A DNA stretch of 64,000 nt from Euzebya rosea. GTDB lineage: Bacteria > Actinomycetota > Nitriliruptoria > Euzebyales > Euzebyaceae. Position numbers and translations under genes: made by a program. The notes beneath the pieces are model-generated. The model was not told where the DNA came from and made no database searches. It saw only the letters and a program-made list of their open reading frames with translations. This document shows positions 2,509 to 54,401 of the stretch, piece by piece. Position 1 is the first letter of the stretch, and each line of letters opens with the position of its first letter. The stretch is from contig NZ_PGDQ01000003.1 in the NCBI RefSeq assembly GCF_003073135.1, positions 186,001 through 250,000 of the forward strand, given 5' to 3'.

Positions 2509-3459
2509 ATGGACGCAGTCCTGACCGAGGAGCAGCAGGCGCTGGCCGAGGCCGCCGAGGGGTTGTCCGCCGACGGCCTGACCGGTGCCCGGACCATGCT
2601 GGACGGCGGCGATGCCCCCGCCCGCCCCACCGCTGACCTGTTCGACGGCTTCAACGGCCTCGGCCTCGACAGCGGCGCAGGCGGAACGCTCGTCGATCTG
2701 GCCATCGTCGCACGGGCGCTCGGACGAACGGTCTGCCCGACCCCGTGGATGGCCCATCAGCTCGCGTTGCAGGCCGCCAGCGCCGCTGGCCTGGACATCG
2801 CCGACGGCCTCGCCGCCGACGCTCGCTGGGTGCTCGTGGACGGCGCACCCGTCGCCGTGCGCGAGGGTGGGACGGCCACCGCTGCGGTGCGGCTCGACGG
2901 GCCGACCGTCTCGCTGCACCCCGTGACCGGCGCCAGGCCGCGGACGGCGATGGACCCCTCTCGTCCTATGGCCGACCTCGAGCTCGGCGCTGCCATCGCC
3001 AGCGTCGACGGTCATGCCGACGCGGCCCGGGCACGGGTTCGGGCCGTCCTGGCGGCCGGCCTGACCGGGGTGGGGCTCGGGGCCGTCGAACGGGCGGTCG
3101 ACTACGCGATGCAACGCGAGCAGTTCGGCAAGGTCGTCGCGGCGTTCCAGGCGGTCAGCCACCAGCTGGCCGACGCCTGGACCGGCGTGGAGCTCGCGTG
3201 GTCGCTCGCGCTGTACGCCTGCTGGGCCACGGAGGAAGGGCGCGAGGACGCCGCCGCGGCCGTCGACGCCGCGGCGGCCAAGTCAGCGACGGCTGCGGTC
3301 TTCGCCGCCGAGCGCGGCATGCAGGTCCACGGCGGCATCGGGATCACCTGGGAGGCCGACCCACACCTGTCGTTGCGGCGGGCCATGGGCGACGAGGCGT
3401 GGATGGGCGGCAGCCGTCGGGCCGAGCTGGCCCTGGGGCGCGCGGTGCTTGCCCGCTGA
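2509..3459 (+). CDS. Acyl-CoA dehydrogenase, short partner subunit
   Basis: At 316 aa this is about 60 residues shorter than its neighbour. It keeps the C-terminal helical signatures YAMQREQFGKVVAAFQAVSH and QVHGGIGITWEADPHL, but its N-terminal half diverges and lacks a clear EPGAGSD motif. That is the usual look of the second subunit of heteromeric FadE enzymes, where FAD-binding and catalytic residues are divided between chains. ATG 2509 follows AAGGAGAG (2497-2504); an upstream open frame overlapping the previous gene is ignored. Co-transcription with 1320-2480 is inferred from spacing. Confidence 0.88.
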   Translation: MDAVLTEEQQALAEAAEGLSADGLTGARTMLDGGDAPARPTADLFDGFNGLGLDSGAGGTLVDLAIVARALGRTVCPTPWMAHQLALQAASAAGLDIADGLAADARWVLVDGAPVAVREGGTATAAVRLDGPTVSLHPVTGARPRTAMDPSRPMADLELGAAIASVDGHADAARARVRAVLAAGLTGVGLGAVERAVDYAMQREQFGKVVAAFQAVSHQLADAWTGVELAWSLALYACWATEEGREDAAAAVDAAAAKSATAAVFAAERGMQVHGGIGITWEADPHLSLRRAMGDEAWMGGSRRAELALGRAVLAR

Positions 3460-3465
3460 TCCGCA

Positions 3466-5244
3466 TCAGCGCAGGTCCACCTCGGTGACGTCATCGGGCT
3501 GCACCTCGTCGATGGGCTCCGTCACGGGCAGGGTGAACCTGATCCGCGTCCCCCCGGTCGGTGACTCCTCTGCCGTGATGGAGCCTCCGTGGGCGACGAC
3601 GGCGTCCCTGCAGGCGGCCAGCCCGAGACCGGATCCCATGTCCGATGCGGTCGGCGTCCGGTAGCCCGACTCGAACACCAGCTCGCGCTGGTCGGGCGGA
3701 ATCCCCTGCCCGTCGTCGTCGACGGTGACCGTCCATGTCGGGGTCGCGCTGTCGGTCCGCCGCAGCAGGACCGCCACGGTGATGCCGGGGCGATCACCGT
3801 GCTTCAGCGAGTTGCCGACCAGGTTGAGCAACACCTGCTTGAGCGTCGTCACGGGTGCGTCCACGGTGTCGTGGTTGCTCGTGAGGCTCACGGTCCCCCC
3901 GACGCGGCTGGCCTGCAGGGCGGTGAAGTCGACCAGCCAGGTCCGCAGCTCGTCGGTGGTGACGGGGGCCTCGGCGTTGGGCACCACGGCTCGGGCGTCG
4001 GCGAGCATCTCCGACACCAGGTCGGCCAGCGTCGTGGCGCTCGACTGGATGGTCTCCAGGCTCGTCTGCCGGACGGTCGGGCTGATGCCCTCGCGGGTGG
4101 CCATCTGCGCGAAGCCCTTGATGGCGGCCAGCGGCCCGCGGATGTCGTGGGCCACCCGGCGCGCGAACCTGGCCAACGCATCGTTGGACCGCAGGAGGTT
4201 GGCGTTGGCCTCCGACAGCTCGACCGACTGGCTGCGCAGGGCCTGCGTTCGGTGGGCAACCGTCTCCTCCAGCGTCGCGTTGAGCGCAGCCAGCTCGGCC
4301 GTGCGTGCCCGGACCTGCTGCCGCAGCAGGGCGACCCCGCCGGCGAAGACCAGCAGCAGCGCCAGCCCGGCCCACAGGAGCGGGACCAGCCATGTCGGCA
4401 GGGCCCGCTGGTCGGGGTCGGTCAGGTCGAACCCGGTCCACTGGACGTGGATGACCGACATCTCCGTCGGCGACACCAGCGAGCGCCCGACCCGGAGGAT
4501 CTCCAGCGGTGGGGAGTTCGCTCGGCCCCACGCCGACACCTCTGCCACGTCGATGGGTTCGCCCACGACCCGGAGCGTCCCGCGGTCCTGCTGTCGCAGC
4601 ACGTGGGTCGTCAGCGCGAGCGGACCCGCCCACAGGTCGACGTCGCCCTCGTACACCGCGCCGACGGCGTCCGGGATGGATGCTGCGGGCACGTACCGCA
4701 GCTCCGGGTACTCGGCGAGGATCCGTTCTTCCACCACGGAACCGGGGATGGACGTGACGGTGCGACCGTCGAGGTTCGCGGTGGAGAGGATGTCGGTTGC
4801 ATCCGGTCCGACGGCGAAGGCGACCGGCGTGTGGGCAAGCGTGTCGACGGGCTGGGCAAACGAGGTCAGGTCCGGTCGTGCGGCCAACCCCGGGAGGATG
4901 TCGATGGAGCCGTCGCGCAACGCCTCGACCGCCTCGCCCGGGTCGTCGAAGATCACGGTCTCGAGCTGGGCACCGACCTTGAGGGCCATCAGCTCGGTCA
5001 GCGCCATGGCCCAGCCCCCGGTCACCTGTCCGTCGACCACGACGACCGCCGGGGCGATGGTGCTCGTGGCGCCGACCCGGATGGGGCCGTCGGTGGCCAG
5101 CCATGTCCGCTGGTCCTCGGTGAGCAGGTCCGTCGACGGCTGGCCGGAACACGCGGACAGGACCAGCCCGAGGACCAGCCAGACCACCCCGCTGGGCCAG
5201 CTGCGGGACAGCGGGCGGTGAACGACGTTCATCGAGGGAATCAT
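3466..5244 (-). CDS. Sensor histidine kinase with extracytoplasmic solute-binding domain
   Basis: 592 aa. The N-terminus carries a hydrophobic segment ending in a lipobox-like LSAC (Cys32). Residues about 50-270 resemble a type-3 periplasmic solute-binding domain (SBP_bac_3), followed by a membrane segment near 283-307, a coiled-coil linker and a HisKA/HATPase core. The phospho-acceptor is His366 in RVAHDIRGPL; the N box is NLVGNSLKHG, and DDDGQGIP and GSGLGLA are G boxes. The layout is BvgS/EvgS-like with a single sensor domain and no receiver. No response regulator gene adjoins it. It converges on the dehydrogenase pair with only 6 bp between stops. ATG 5232 is an alternative start. Confidence 0.9.
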   Translation of the reverse strand: MIPSMNVVHRPLSRSWPSGVVWLVLGLVLSACSGQPSTDLLTEDQRTWLATDGPIRVGATSTIAPAVVVVDGQVTGGWAMALTELMALKVGAQLETVIFDDPGEAVEALRDGSIDILPGLAARPDLTSFAQPVDTLAHTPVAFAVGPDATDILSTANLDGRTVTSIPGSVVEERILAEYPELRYVPAASIPDAVGAVYEGDVDLWAGPLALTTHVLRQQDRGTLRVVGEPIDVAEVSAWGRANSPPLEILRVGRSLVSPTEMSVIHVQWTGFDLTDPDQRALPTWLVPLLWAGLALLLVFAGGVALLRQQVRARTAELAALNATLEETVAHRTQALRSQSVELSEANANLLRSNDALARFARRVAHDIRGPLAAIKGFAQMATREGISPTVRQTSLETIQSSATTLADLVSEMLADARAVVPNAEAPVTTDELRTWLVDFTALQASRVGGTVSLTSNHDTVDAPVTTLKQVLLNLVGNSLKHGDRPGITVAVLLRRTDSATPTWTVTVDDDGQGIPPDQRELVFESGYRTPTASDMGSGLGLAACRDAVVAHGGSITAEESPTGGTRIRFTLPVTEPIDEVQPDDVTEVDLR

Positions 5245-38282: not shown

Positions 38283-38369
38283 CCCTGCGTGATGGTCGTG
38301 ACCTCAGGTCACCGCGGTGCCGGCCGATCATGCATGGTGGAGGCCCTCCCCGACGGAGGGATCGGAACC

Positions 38370-39533
38370 GTGCATGTGCTCTTCGTCGACGACAACCCCG
38401 GCAGGCTGACGCAGCTCGCCGGTGAGGTTGCGTCCGCGTACGGCTGGACCACCTCCACCGCCTCGAGCATCGGCGAAGTCGTCGGGGCGCTCACCGCCCA
38501 ACGCTGGGACGCCCTCGTCGCAGCCGACGACGAGTTCGGCGACGGCAGCAGCGCGCTGGCGCTGGCCCGGCTCAAGCAGCCGTCCGCGACGCGGTGCCTC
38601 GTGCGCCTGGATCCGGGTGGAGGGTCCGCGACTGCGCTCGCCGTCGCCGAGATCGCCCACCGTGTCCTCGACGACGTGCCGACCCCAGCCGCCCTCAAGG
38701 CGATGCTCGTCGTCATGGGCGTCGGCGGCATGCGGGCGCCGCAGGACCTCGTCGACAGCGTCGGTGCGGTCGCCGGACTGCCGTCCGTGGCGCGCATCCT
38801 CACCGACCTGAAGACCATCCTGACCGATCCGGCCTGCAGCCCGGACCGGGTCGCCGCCGTCGTGCGCACCGAACCGGCCATCGCCGCCAAGGTCCTGCAC
38901 CTCGCCAACGCGGGCCTGGCCGGTCGTGCCGGCAGCGTCCACGACCTCGAGCAGGCCGCGGCGCTGCTCGGCATGCGCGTGCTCCGCCAGGTCGTCCTCG
39001 CCTCCGCAGCCTTCGCGGCTGCCGAACAGCTCGGCGTCGATCCCACCCTCGTCGCGGCGGTGCAACGCCACGGGGTCGCCGTGGCTGCGGCGGCCATGGC
39101 CTCGGGCACGTTGCCGCCGCATGCCGCCATCGGCGGGTTGTTGCTGGACATCGGCCTGCCGCTGATGGCGCTCACCTGGCCCGACGTGCACGCCGAGCTG
39201 CGGGCGATGGTCCACGAACGTTCGGTGCCGCTGCACGTGGAGGAGATGCGCGTGCTGGGCACCTCCCATTCCGAGGCCGGCGCGCTGCTGGCTCGTCGCT
39301 GGTCGCTGCCGACATCGATCGTCGAGATGGTCGCCGGCCACCACTTCGTCCCGCGTTCCCCGGTTCCCGAACGCCGGGCACTGGGCTACGTCGTGCACCG
39401 GGCCGCCCAGCTCGGCGACCCGGCCGGACGCGACATCCACGACCACGGCGTCGAGCTCGACGTGCCGGAGTGGGTCGACCGGTGGCGGGTCGAGGACGTC
39501 GAGTGGGCAGGACCACCCGACACCCGGGGATAG
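38370..39533 (+). CDS. Receiver-like/HDOD domain protein
   Basis: 387 aa. N-terminal receiver-like domain (about 1-115) beginning VHVLFVDDNPGR: the acidic pair is kept, but the phospho-acceptor region reads AADDEFGDG without a clear conserved Asp-x-x-x-P. A C-terminal HDOD domain contains PSVARILTDLKTIL, VLHLANAGLAG, ALLGMRVLRQVV and HSEAGALLARRW. HDOD proteins act in signalling without a known catalytic activity. GTG 38370 lies 9 nt after GGAGGG (38355-38360). Paralogous to 40200-41315, with about the same length and motif order. Confidence 0.85.
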   Translation: MHVLFVDDNPGRLTQLAGEVASAYGWTTSTASSIGEVVGALTAQRWDALVAADDEFGDGSSALALARLKQPSATRCLVRLDPGGGSATALAVAEIAHRVLDDVPTPAALKAMLVVMGVGGMRAPQDLVDSVGAVAGLPSVARILTDLKTILTDPACSPDRVAAVVRTEPAIAAKVLHLANAGLAGRAGSVHDLEQAAALLGMRVLRQVVLASAAFAAAEQLGVDPTLVAAVQRHGVAVAAAAMASGTLPPHAAIGGLLLDIGLPLMALTWPDVHAELRAMVHERSVPLHVEEMRVLGTSHSEAGALLARRWSLPTSIVEMVAGHHFVPRSPVPERRALGYVVHRAAQLGDPAGRDIHDHGVELDVPEWVDRWRVEDVEWAGPPDTRG

Positions 39534-39597
39534 CCCGCCACCCCCGGACGAGCCCGACGTCGGAGACCGGGGGGCGACGCGAGCCCCGGGGTCCGGG

Positions 39598-39903
39598 TCA
39601 GCTCGTCAGCGCGGGGTGCTCCACACGAGCGCGGCGAACGCTCGGCAACGACTCGATGCGTGCCAGCAGGGTGGTCAGCCGATCGGGTGTCGCGTCCGGA
39701 TCGGTCCCGATGATCTCGATGACCGCCTCGGCCACGTCCCGCGTCGGGCCGGCGGGGCGGTACCGGAGGTCGCCGATCTGCAGGCCCCTGCCCTCGACGA
39801 GGGCGATCACCCGGGCGAGGGCGCGGCAACGATCGTCGAGCTCCAACCGCAGGCGGGTCGGCGCAGGCGGGCTGGCGGGTGGTCCGTGGGGGGAACGCCT
39901 CAC
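39598..39903 (-). CDS. IlvM-like ACT-domain protein (acetolactate synthase small-subunit type)
   Basis: 101 aa. A single ACT-like fold, with RLRLELDDRCRALARVIALV at about 20-39 and AEAVIEIIGT, ending ARIESLPSVRRARVEH. It aligns by eye with E. coli IlvM, the small regulatory subunit of acetohydroxyacid synthase II, in strand/helix order and spacing. No catalytic ilvB/ilvG gene adjoins it. GTG 39903 follows GAAGGA with 7-nt spacing; an ATG at 39966 would place the start inside the upstream hairpin. Preceded by a branched-chain-rich leader peptide and hairpin, so attenuation is likely. Confidence 0.7.
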   Translation of the reverse strand: MRRSPHGPPASPPAPTRLRLELDDRCRALARVIALVEGRGLQIGDLRYRPAGPTRDVAEAVIEIIGTDPDATPDRLTTLLARIESLPSVRRARVEHPALTS

Positions 39904-39962
39904 GTGAAGGTCCTTCGTCGGAGGGCCGGCGAGGGGCGACACGGGGAGCAGGGTGCGATGGT

Positions 39963-39991
39963 CCACCGGGCCGCTCCTGCCTGCCCGGTGG
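39963..39991 (-). terminator. Attenuator-like hairpin before IlvM-like gene
   Basis: Perfect 9-bp stem CCACCGGGC (39983-39991 read on minus) with GCCCGGTGG (39963-39971), 11-nt loop, starting 11 nt after the leader peptide stop and ending about 60 nt before GTG 39903. There is no U run, so it could end transcription inefficiently or block the ribosome. Confidence 0.55.
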
Positions 39992-40002
39992 TCGGTCGGG
40001 GG

Positions 40003-40089
40003 CTAGGAACGCCCGCCGATGATGAGCACAGCAGAAGCGCAGCCGAGTACGAGGTCGGCTGCGAGGGTGGCTACCAGCTGCTGCTGCAC
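40003..40089 (-). CDS. Putative branched-chain amino acid leader peptide
   Basis: 28 codons from GTG 40089 to TAG 40003. The peptide ends in a Cys-Ala-Ser-Ala-Val-Leu-Ile-Ile run and has 5 Leu, 3 internal Val and 2 Ile among 28 residues. A TAGCGT -10 box (40097-40102) ends 7 nt before the GTG, which would make the transcript leaderless. A strong hairpin and an IlvM-like ACT gene follow. This is the arrangement of ilv attenuation leaders. The composition could also fit a membrane-spanning micropeptide, and chance is possible at this length. Confidence 0.5.
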   Translation of the reverse strand: MQQQLVATLAADLVLGCASAVLIIGGRS

Positions 40090-40096
40090 GGGGGAC

Positions 40097-40102
40097 ACGC
40101 TA
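40097..40102 (-). promoter_or_regulatory. -10 box TAGCGT before leader peptide
   Basis: Minus-strand TANNNT within an extended TGCTAGCGT context; transcription would start at about 40090, next to GTG 40089. The -35 match is poor. Confidence 0.4.
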
Positions 40103-40199
40103 GCACCGGATCGGGGCGCACGACCAGCGATACCTCATGTACCGGTGTCGTCCGCCGATGGAGGTTGCGTCGTCCGTCCGTTCCATCGGGGAACCACCA

Positions 40200-41315
40200 A
40201 TGTTCATGCTCGTCGTCGACGTGCCCGGGGGTGTGCTGTCGCGCGCTGCCACGGAGCTGCGCGACCGGTTCGGGTGGACCATCGCCCTGGCCGAGGACGG
40301 GGTCGGCTGCCTGGGGCACCTGCGCAGCCAGCGATGGGACGCGGTGGTCGCCGCGCGGACCGTCGGGCACATCGGCGGTGCGACGTTGTTGACCCTCGTC
40401 AGGAGCATCCAGCCGTCGGCGGCCCGCCTGCTGGTCGACGAGCAGGACGAGCGCCTGCCGTCATCCGGTGTCGAGATGGGCGTCGCCCATCGGGTCCTGA
40501 CCCGCGAACCCTCCGCGACCACGCTGCGCGCCGTGTTGCTGGCGCTCGACGCAGCGCCAGCGAACGTGCCCCACGACCTGCAGCAGGCCATCGGTCGGGT
40601 CGCCGGCCTGCCGCCGACCCACGGGATCCTCTCGGATCTGCGCGACCTGATGGAGGATCCGGAGGTCTCCACCGACCGGATCGCGACGACGGTCGGTCGC
40701 GACCCGATGCTCGCCGCCAGGGTCCTGCACCTCGCCAACGCCGGGTTCGCGTCGCACAACGTCGTCATCTCCAGCCTCGCCCAGGCCGCCGCGCTGCTCG
40801 GCGTGGAGACGCTCCGGCAGGTGGTGATCGCCTCAGCGGCCTTCTCGGCCGTGTCGTCGTTGGACGTGGCACGCGACGTGATCGAGCACTCGCAGCGCCA
40901 CGGCGTTGCGGCTGCCCGCATGGCGGCCAGCATGCCGGACCTGCCGCCGCACGCCCGGACGGGGGCGCTGCTGCTGGACATCGGCATGCCGTTGATGGCG
41001 CTGGCATGGCCCGAGGACCATGCCGTCCTGCGCGAGCAGAGTCGTCGCCGCGGTCAGCCGCTGCACGAAGCCGAGCAGGAGGCGTTCGGCGTCACGCACG
41101 CCACTGCGGGGGCCCTGCTCGCCAGGCGGTGGTCGTTGCCGAAGGTGCTGGCCCGGATGATCGACGGCCATCACCTGCCCCCCCTCAGCGAGGAACCGGA
41201 CGACCGGGCGCTGGGGTTCCGGGTGCACCATGCGGTCCAGACCGCACTGCACCCCGACGGGGTGGACGTCTACGACGTCGTCGTGCTGGACGGCCTGCCC
41301 GCCTGGGTGCAGTAG
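40200..41315 (+). CDS. Receiver-like/HDOD domain protein, paralogue
   Basis: 371 aa. The N-terminal domain (about 1-110) has the receiver outline but has lost its acidic residues (MFMLVVDVPGG; VVAARTVG at the phospho-acceptor strand). The HDOD part has PTHGILSDLRDLM, VLHLANAGFAS, ALLGVETLRQVV and HATAGALLARRW. Clearly related to 38370-39533 by duplication, with the second copy more degenerate. ATG 40200 is used; ATG 40158 is possible. The IlvM-like gene lies between the paralogues on the other strand. Confidence 0.85.
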   Translation: MFMLVVDVPGGVLSRAATELRDRFGWTIALAEDGVGCLGHLRSQRWDAVVAARTVGHIGGATLLTLVRSIQPSAARLLVDEQDERLPSSGVEMGVAHRVLTREPSATTLRAVLLALDAAPANVPHDLQQAIGRVAGLPPTHGILSDLRDLMEDPEVSTDRIATTVGRDPMLAARVLHLANAGFASHNVVISSLAQAAALLGVETLRQVVIASAAFSAVSSLDVARDVIEHSQRHGVAAARMAASMPDLPPHARTGALLLDIGMPLMALAWPEDHAVLREQSRRRGQPLHEAEQEAFGVTHATAGALLARRWSLPKVLARMIDGHHLPPLSEEPDDRALGFRVHHAVQTALHPDGVDVYDVVVLDGLPAWVQ

Positions 41316-54325: not shown

Positions 54326-54401
54326 TGGTGGGCGATACAGGGCTCGAACCTGTGACCTTTTGGTTGTCGACCAAACGCTCTCCCAGCTGAGCTAATCGCC
54401 C
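54326..54401 (-). tRNA. tRNA-Val (anticodon GAC)
   Basis: 76 nt including encoded CCA. The acceptor stem GGGCGAT/ATCGCCC, D arm GCTC..GAGC, anticodon stem TTTGG/CCAAA with loop TCGACAA (anticodon GAC), and T arm ACAGG-TTCGAGC-CCTGT all pair perfectly. Confidence 0.97.

Follow-up and report, generated by a model that had tools for sequence, protein, structure and literature searches.

A probable isoleucine-sensing leader peptide upstream of an orphan IlvM-type ACT gene in two distant groups of one phylum

We analyzed a 64,000-nucleotide stretch of the Euzebya rosea genome (positions 186001-250000 of contig C3 of genome G000; here, the window), in which the minus strand between positions 39598 and 40102 carries, in this order, a TAGCGT promoter box, a 28-codon frame, a perfect 9-bp hairpin, and a small gene for an ACT-domain protein. 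The short frame is likely to be an isoleucine-sensing leader peptide that acts as an attenuator of a spare IlvM-type ACT regulatory subunit. Control is probably exerted at translation rather than transcription, translational control being favored because no terminator was found. The arrangement appears to be a real, conserved regulatory unit that recurs in two distant groups of one phylum. The window alone gave mixed signals, and the decisive support is comparative.

A first-pass annotation of the window had described a 28-codon frame with 10 internal Leu, Val, or Ile residues, a TAGCGT box upstream of its start, a perfect 9-bp hairpin past its stop, and an IlvM-like ACT gene that neither ilvB nor ilvG follows. 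These features were found in the sequence as described and are listed below with those added here; P1 and P3 are hairpins, and G000, G001, G002, and G003 are the four genomes of the window genus. No −35 consensus was found upstream of the leader.

40097-40102, minus strand: −10 box TAGCGT, 7 nucleotides (nt) before the first leader codon, which predicts a leaderless transcript
40003-40089, minus strand: leader open reading frame (ORF) of 28 codons with a GTG start, VQQQLVATLAADLVLGCASAVLIIGGRS followed by the stop; predicted to be leaderless, with Ile codons confined to the last eight positions
40026-40089, minus strand: P1, a long hairpin in the 5' part of the leader ORF, present in the predicted minimum free energy (MFE) folds of G000 and G003
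40081-40089 and 40026-40034, minus strand: outer arms of P1; the inner arms are GCAGCCGA and TCGGCTGC
40005-40015, minus strand: end of the leader ORF (CGGGCGTTCC plus the T of the stop), which can pair with AGGAGCGGCCCG at 39967-39978, competing with P3
39963-39991, minus strand: P3, the perfect 9-bp hairpin CCACCGGGC-AGGCAGGAGCG-GCCCGGTGG, with no U-run after it
39911-39916, minus strand: Shine-Dalgarno-like GAAGGA, 7 nt ahead of the likelier ACT start
39598-39903, minus strand: orphan IlvM/IlvN-type ACT-domain gene, 101 amino acids (aa) from the second GTG

Conservation within the window genus was also examined. The ACT gene was found in 3 of the 41 genomes searched (G000 included), with 78% identity in G003 and 62% in G001. 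G000, G003, and G001 have in common the box (TAGTGT in G001, 9 nt ahead of the leader start), the start codon (GTG, GTG, and ATG, respectively), the reading frame, and the stop, with one in-frame codon deletion in the G001 frame. Leader plus hairpin measures 127 nt in G000, 127 nt in G003, and 126 nt in G001, and its identity between G000 and G003 is 96%, a value that falls to 83% in the spacer and to 74% in 50 nt of upstream sequence. P3 is identical in G003 and differs in G001 at the outermost pair alone. Ile occurs in the three leaders in the last eight positions only, where it accounts for 5 of 24 residues (counted by eye). The hairpin and the late Ile codons are kept within the genus, and the peptide is not conserved.

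A profile of the three genus proteins, searched against 396 genomes of the phylum, detected one further short ACT gene, in G313, a member of a group that we take to be the Solirubrobacterales. With G313 added, the profile matched 99 of 232 genomes of that order, mostly through ordinary IlvN, and among these 99 were 14 short orphan ACT genes (G313, G624, G176, G592, G586, G532, G587, G591, G598, G597, G603, G602, G600, and G599), whose loci are referred to here as class B. Two other matches were set aside, L132 as an IlvN fragment and L149, which was taken as IlvN beside ilvB. No further orphan could be confirmed when 399 genomes of the class and 396 of the phylum were searched, and the family is thus rare and patchy. 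Among 84,980 named genomes, no relative was detected in either of two scans.

A leaderless mini-ORF of 21 to 29 codons lies upstream of the orphan ACT gene in 13 of the 14 class-B loci; the scan returned exactly one upstream candidate in each of 12 loci, and the L097 leader is identical to that of L096. A T[AG]NNNT box lies 5 to 10 nt ahead of the start in all 12 distinct leaders of class B. Every one of these leaders (for example, MTSQLTEPLAQRASIVIAIAT, MLPSHQTCLAVPGLSLRSIAVITS, MAQRSRTDVPRDRARGRSAAAIVLTITA, MEPFATDLVSNGFACSIAIIIR, and MEPLPTHRALSGSPIAIIIIR) closes with a run of Ile and Val, directly after which a hairpin begins at the stop codon; in 9 of the 12, its stem contains 7 or more perfect pairs. 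When Ile residues were counted in the 12 distinct leaders (omitting, as in the exchange test below, L097 as a duplicate and L067, which has no leader), 35 of the last 96 residues (eight per leader) were Ile, compared to 1 of 178 elsewhere (Fisher test, 2e-17). With one leader per lineage, the counts were 17 of 56 and 1 of 111 (Fisher test, 2e-8). As a control, other leaderless mini-ORFs were collected by the same promoter-start-length rule in the window and the 12 fetched loci (422,594 strand-bases). None of these 60 had two Ile residues among the last eight, compared to 10 of the 12 real leaders recognized there; the scan rule places the start of the L095 leader (within L109) one codon farther upstream, so that this leader was probably counted among the 60 controls. 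The proposal of a branched-chain leader is borne out in that a leader stands before the orphan ACT gene and recurs, and needs amending in that the clustered residue is isoleucine, not branched-chain residues generally.

To describe the RNA structure, the class-B leaders were folded. Most of the MFE folds follow one plan: (i) a hairpin inside the frame; (ii) a pairing between two strands, J5 and J3, that encloses two hairpins; and (iii) a hairpin around the Shine-Dalgarno region. J5 is the Ile-codon strand, and it pairs with J3, 43 to 56 nt past the stop and upstream of the Shine-Dalgarno box (ACCACC with GGTGGT in L069, ACCGCC with GGCGGT in L094, and ATTACCAGCT with AGCTGGTAG in L086). When the paired strands were exchanged among leaders, the native combinations averaged −16.3 kcal/mol and the exchanged ones −12.9 kcal/mol. 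Permutation gave p values of 2e-5 (12 leaders), 8e-4 (9 leaders), and 0.004 (7 lineages), values that relatedness inflates and that come from windows set by eye after the second hairpin. Fixed windows, which did not always include the partner strand, gave p values of 0.00025 (12 leaders) and 0.0028 (9 leaders). A MAFFT core alignment of the 12 leaders left the downstream strand unaligned, and covariation was taken from the exchange test, not from per-pair counts. These results suggest that the downstream strand covaries with the Ile-codon strand.

The layout differs in the window genus, where the last part of the frame can pair with the loop and 3' arm of P3 and so compete with that hairpin. 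In constrained folds, the leader-end pairing and P3 gave −29.8 and −32.8 kcal/mol, respectively, in G000 and −33.4 and −29.3 kcal/mol in G001, a predicted difference of 3 to 4 kcal/mol between the competing folds. The 127-nt G000 leader folded better than 200 of 200 shuffled sequences (z, −4.0), and P1 in G001 was weaker and register-shifted. We also observed that the leader stop (40005-40015) lies in a loop of seven bases that includes UCCU and could kiss the AGGAG of the P3 loop (39974-39978). The window genus and class B thus appear to share the idea and not the geometry.

A working model of isoleucine sensing can be put forward on this basis. Transcription would start at or next to the first codon of the leader, giving a leaderless message onto whose 5' end the ribosome would load. 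The ribosome would translate the 28 codons and reach the Ile codons at the end of the frame, close to the point where the set of hairpins begins. The end of the frame is predicted to base-pair with RNA past the stop, and a ribosome stalled at the Ile codons, where charged tRNA-Ile is scarce, would block that pairing. The downstream leader would then refold and the ACT protein would be made when isoleucine is short; with plentiful isoleucine, the ribosome would leave, the closed structure would form, and ACT levels would be low. The ACT protein might bind IlvB or another branched-chain enzyme.

The same pairings could be read as a structured small RNA or a protein-binding RNA element in which the short frame has no role of its own and strand pairing dictates the Ile codons. 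In the genus, constraint is indeed stronger at the nucleotide level than at the peptide level, the Ile-codon strand does pair downstream, and the kissing of the UCCU and AGGAG loops would suit such an element. An incidental frame, however, does not account for the fact that all 15 distinct leaders retain both an open frame and a start codon positioned at the box, nor for the absence of matching frames among the 60 controls. Moreover, within one genus the number of Ile residues is constant while the use of ATC or ATT and the order of Ala and Ile vary (IAIII, IAIIII, and IIAII), which favors coding over base composition. We therefore regard an RNA element with an incidental frame as quite improbable.

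Classical transcription attenuation, with a terminator formed at plentiful isoleucine and an antiterminator at shortage, as at ilvB, would use the same ingredients, a leader peptide and competing stems. One genus of relatives has CCTTTGT or CCTCTGT after the first hairpin, and the window genus has an ilvB leader of its own that looks classical. In 4 of the 4 genus genomes, one ilvB and one ilvN scored over the cut-off and are adjacent, and ilvB has a separate upstream short frame (MPQRLLILVPVVRQASAVATR in G002, VTHRVVGYGTRSYGILVVARASGPALGV in G001, and MQRCMVGYALGRYLVPFRASDPCAAA in G000). Folds of the ilvB leader were usable for 2 of the 4 genus loci, those at which the ilvB start was located, and a strong hairpin follows the frame in G000 and G003. 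The regions upstream of ilvB (L043, L044, L045, and L046) thus hold branched-chain leader peptides of their own, and GCGTCTG, which comes after the codons, may pair with the sequence that precedes the strong hairpin. That classical-looking arrangement seems to be absent from the ACT locus: no terminator-like site was detected in 39590-40200, and the U-run is missing after P3 in all three genus sequences (G000, G001, and G003), as it is in most relatives. Transcription attenuation is thus an unlikely explanation here, if somewhat less so than an incidental frame. What stands of the attenuation proposed in the first-pass annotation is control by a leader peptide; its classical transcriptional form is unsupported.

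Two other explanations of the structured region were considered and rejected. A known riboswitch or T-box was rejected because an Rfam scan of the window found nothing of either kind, or of any other, at the locus; the sole match at threshold in the window was a tRNA gene elsewhere (54329-54401, minus strand). A dispersed repeat was rejected as well: the exact hairpin core occurs once per genome in three genomes, only at the ACT locus, and copies with 3 mismatches elsewhere were no commoner than those of a reversed-pattern control.

Several observations weigh against an isoleucine-sensing leader. No orphan ACT match was found in G002, although it belongs to the same genus, nor in the other 37 relatives searched. 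L067 (G592) has no leader, and its ACT gene closely follows a 2-oxoacid dehydrogenase E2 gene. The leader peptide drifts: 2 of the 3 codons that differ between G000 and G003 and 14 of the 16 that differ between G000 and G001 are changed nonsynonymously, and the G003 leader has one Leu and one Ile replaced. Such drift together with a varying hairpin had been named at the outset as a sign of a spurious leader; the drift is real (14 nonsynonymous against 2 synonymous codons between G000 and G001), but apart from the outermost pair the hairpin did not vary, and the frame, both of its ends, and the late Ile codons were kept. The whole G001 leader folded hardly better than shuffled sequences (z, −1.0), RNAalifold on the three genus sequences found no both-sided covariation, and the stop-proximal layout differs between the window genus and its relatives. 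Finally, the 10 Ile, Leu, or Val among 27 residues of the window leader do not reach significance (P = 0.08, with the background set at 0.235 from four window proteins). Composition at that level, and the frequency of short open frames in G+C-rich DNA, would fit the view that the frame and hairpin arose by chance in such an intergenic region. The comparative results as a whole (conservation in the genus, recurrence in class B, the late Ile residues, and the controls) make chance a very remote explanation.

The start of the ACT gene was also reexamined. The GTG chosen in the first-pass annotation (39964-39966, giving 122 aa) is part of the hairpin, and its frame agrees with that of the gene in G000 and G003 but not in G001. 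The stretch from the first to the second GTG drifts like noncoding DNA (7 nonsynonymous and 1 synonymous changed codons), whereas in the ACT domain 25 synonymous and 17 nonsynonymous changed codons separate G000 and G003. Because of the frame in G001 and this drift, the hairpin GTG was rejected as the gene start. The second GTG (39901-39903), with GAAGGA 7 nt upstream (GAAGGA in G003 and CGAGGA in G001), has equivalents in all three genomes and is the likelier start.

To place the ACT protein, sequence profiles and a structural model were used. An AlphaFold2 model has the bab-bab ACT fold, with a mean predicted local distance difference test (pLDDT) score of 77.5. The best Foldseek match was Escherichia coli IlvN (5ypp, 5e-6), and a second fold search gave equal scores to a large number of ACT and ferredoxin-like folds; because so many folds tie, the fold alone cannot place the protein among the small subunits of acetohydroxyacid synthase (AHAS). 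A 14-member orphan profile (3 genus and 11 class-B proteins) was also searched: its eight best matches among PDB sequences were all AHAS small subunits (6e-13 to 1.2e-3), and hhalign aligned it to the IlvN of the genus with a probability of 94.8%, compared to a weak 3.5% for the three-genus profile before the class-B members joined. Matches at E ≤ 0.01 were obtained to IlvM PRK11152 for 7 of the 14 members and to Pfam ACT_5 for 9 of the 14. The window protein alone had no NCBIfam match and scored below every NCBIfam and Pfam cut-off (ACT_4, 13 to 14 bits against a cut-off of 27), which points to a set of small proteins missed by present family libraries. These data suggest that the orphan protein groups with AHAS small subunits, and the unrelated family that would have spoken against an IlvM-like gene was not seen. 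In a tree of 22 ACT domains, which had poor resolution and long branches, the IlvN sequences group together, and the tree does not distinguish a single from multiple origins of the orphans.

An IlvM-like protein that was the sole AHAS small subunit of the cell was rejected, as the ilvB-ilvN pair is intact in all four genus genomes. It is therefore true, as first noted, that a regulatory subunit would be attenuated on its own, but it is a spare one, the intact pair lying elsewhere behind its own leader. IlvB is the first candidate for its partner, and a 2-oxo-acid dehydrogenase is a putative second. In IlvN, the NRPG loop is the presumed binding site of the inhibitor valine, and IlvM-type enzymes typically resist valine. 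By eye, in the alignment, the loop glycine is absent from 11 of the 14 orphan proteins, as it is from IlvM; the 3 that have it (PGVL) are all from one genus. A subunit switch can be imagined in which, at low isoleucine (e.g., when excess valine shuts IlvB-IlvN), the leader permits synthesis of the IlvM-like subunit, which has no ligand loop of the usual kind; this subunit would take the place of IlvN on the single IlvB, and the enzyme would run despite valine. We consider this switch possible but doubtful; if it were true, the attenuated product would be a spare subunit and not a pathway enzyme. If the regulation proposed here holds, these bacteria would tune branched-chain feedback behavior, not enzyme amount, in response to isoleucine.

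Flanking genes were called at 11 class-B loci, of which 10 have a leader and the other, L115, is the locus of L067; selected neighbors at six of the 11 were searched with Pfam. Genes for branched-chain or 2-oxo-acid breakdown lie near the orphan ACT gene at 4 of the 11:

L106: Glu/Leu/Phe/Val dehydrogenase (scanned via L063)
L108: dehydrogenase E1 alpha and beta
L110: E1 alpha and beta, Glu/Leu/Phe/Val dehydrogenase, and Lrp/AsnC
L115 (G592): E2 gene at 2660-3766, with the ACT start at 2652, minus strand; ACT directly follows E2, without a leader

The L115 arrangement hints at a role in keto-acid breakdown for the orphan ACT protein.

In the window, the unit lies between two HDOD genes that are 45 to 46% identical to each other:

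38289-39533, plus strand: HDOD gene 1 (Pfam HDOD, 2.7e-34)
40137-41315, plus strand: HDOD gene 2 (Pfam HDOD, 8.6e-39; response-regulator match weak)

The position between HDOD paralogues, first remarked upon as unusual, is thus accurate for G000, and G003 keeps these neighbors. G001 has no HDOD match, and its ACT gene lies directly between an FAD-oxidase gene and tyrS. Because the HDOD genes are absent from G001, they were rejected as part of the unit, and they appear to have been inserted or lost around a standing ACT-tyrS neighborhood.

Leader-peptide attenuators are known before biosynthetic operons and synthetase genes. In the literature searched, which lacked most subscription journals, no paper was found that deals with an orphan ACT or IlvM-like gene preceded by a leader peptide. 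In the portions available, PMC1262725 describes leader peptides at ilvB, leuS, and leuA (the LEU element) in Actinobacteria, and PMC10272879 and PMC13236596 describe attenuation by an upstream ORF at ilvB; PMC4833913 covers leader genes in general, and the words isoleucine and Euzebya are absent from its main text. As far as those portions go, the actinobacterial ilvB/ilvBNC attenuators (the ilvB-II motif and Mycobacterium tuberculosis ilvB1NC; PMC1262725, PMC10272879, PMC13236596) likewise have a short Ile/Leu/Val frame, competing stems, and a branched-chain gene downstream. They control an AHAS operon, however, with an intrinsic terminator and U-run, whereas here a lone ACT gene follows and a terminator was not found; in the window genus, ilvB carries its own leader apart from the ACT leader. 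In the LEU element before leuA, as given in the same portions of PMC1262725, the codon run itself forms the base stem, as it does here. The Leu codons, however, pair with the Shine-Dalgarno box and a pseudoknot is present, with leuA downstream, whereas our Ile codons pair upstream of that box with an ACT gene downstream, and the locus falls outside the LEU element as defined there. E. coli ilvL-ilvXGMEDA (NC_000913) likewise combines a leader peptide with an IlvM-type small subunit, but its ilvM adjoins ilvG, the gene of its catalytic subunit (a pseudogene in the NC_000913 strain), and here the subunit gene stands alone. In the translation attenuation of cysteine genes in Mycobacterium smegmatis, according to the available part of PMC13236596, an upstream frame likewise pairs with downstream RNA and controls translation of the next gene; that case concerns cysteine and was tested in the laboratory, whereas ours concerns isoleucine and an ACT gene and is known from sequence alone. 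Set beside these systems, what would be new here is an attenuator, present in two distant groups of a phylum, that precedes a lone regulatory subunit on a leaderless message and lacks a terminator.
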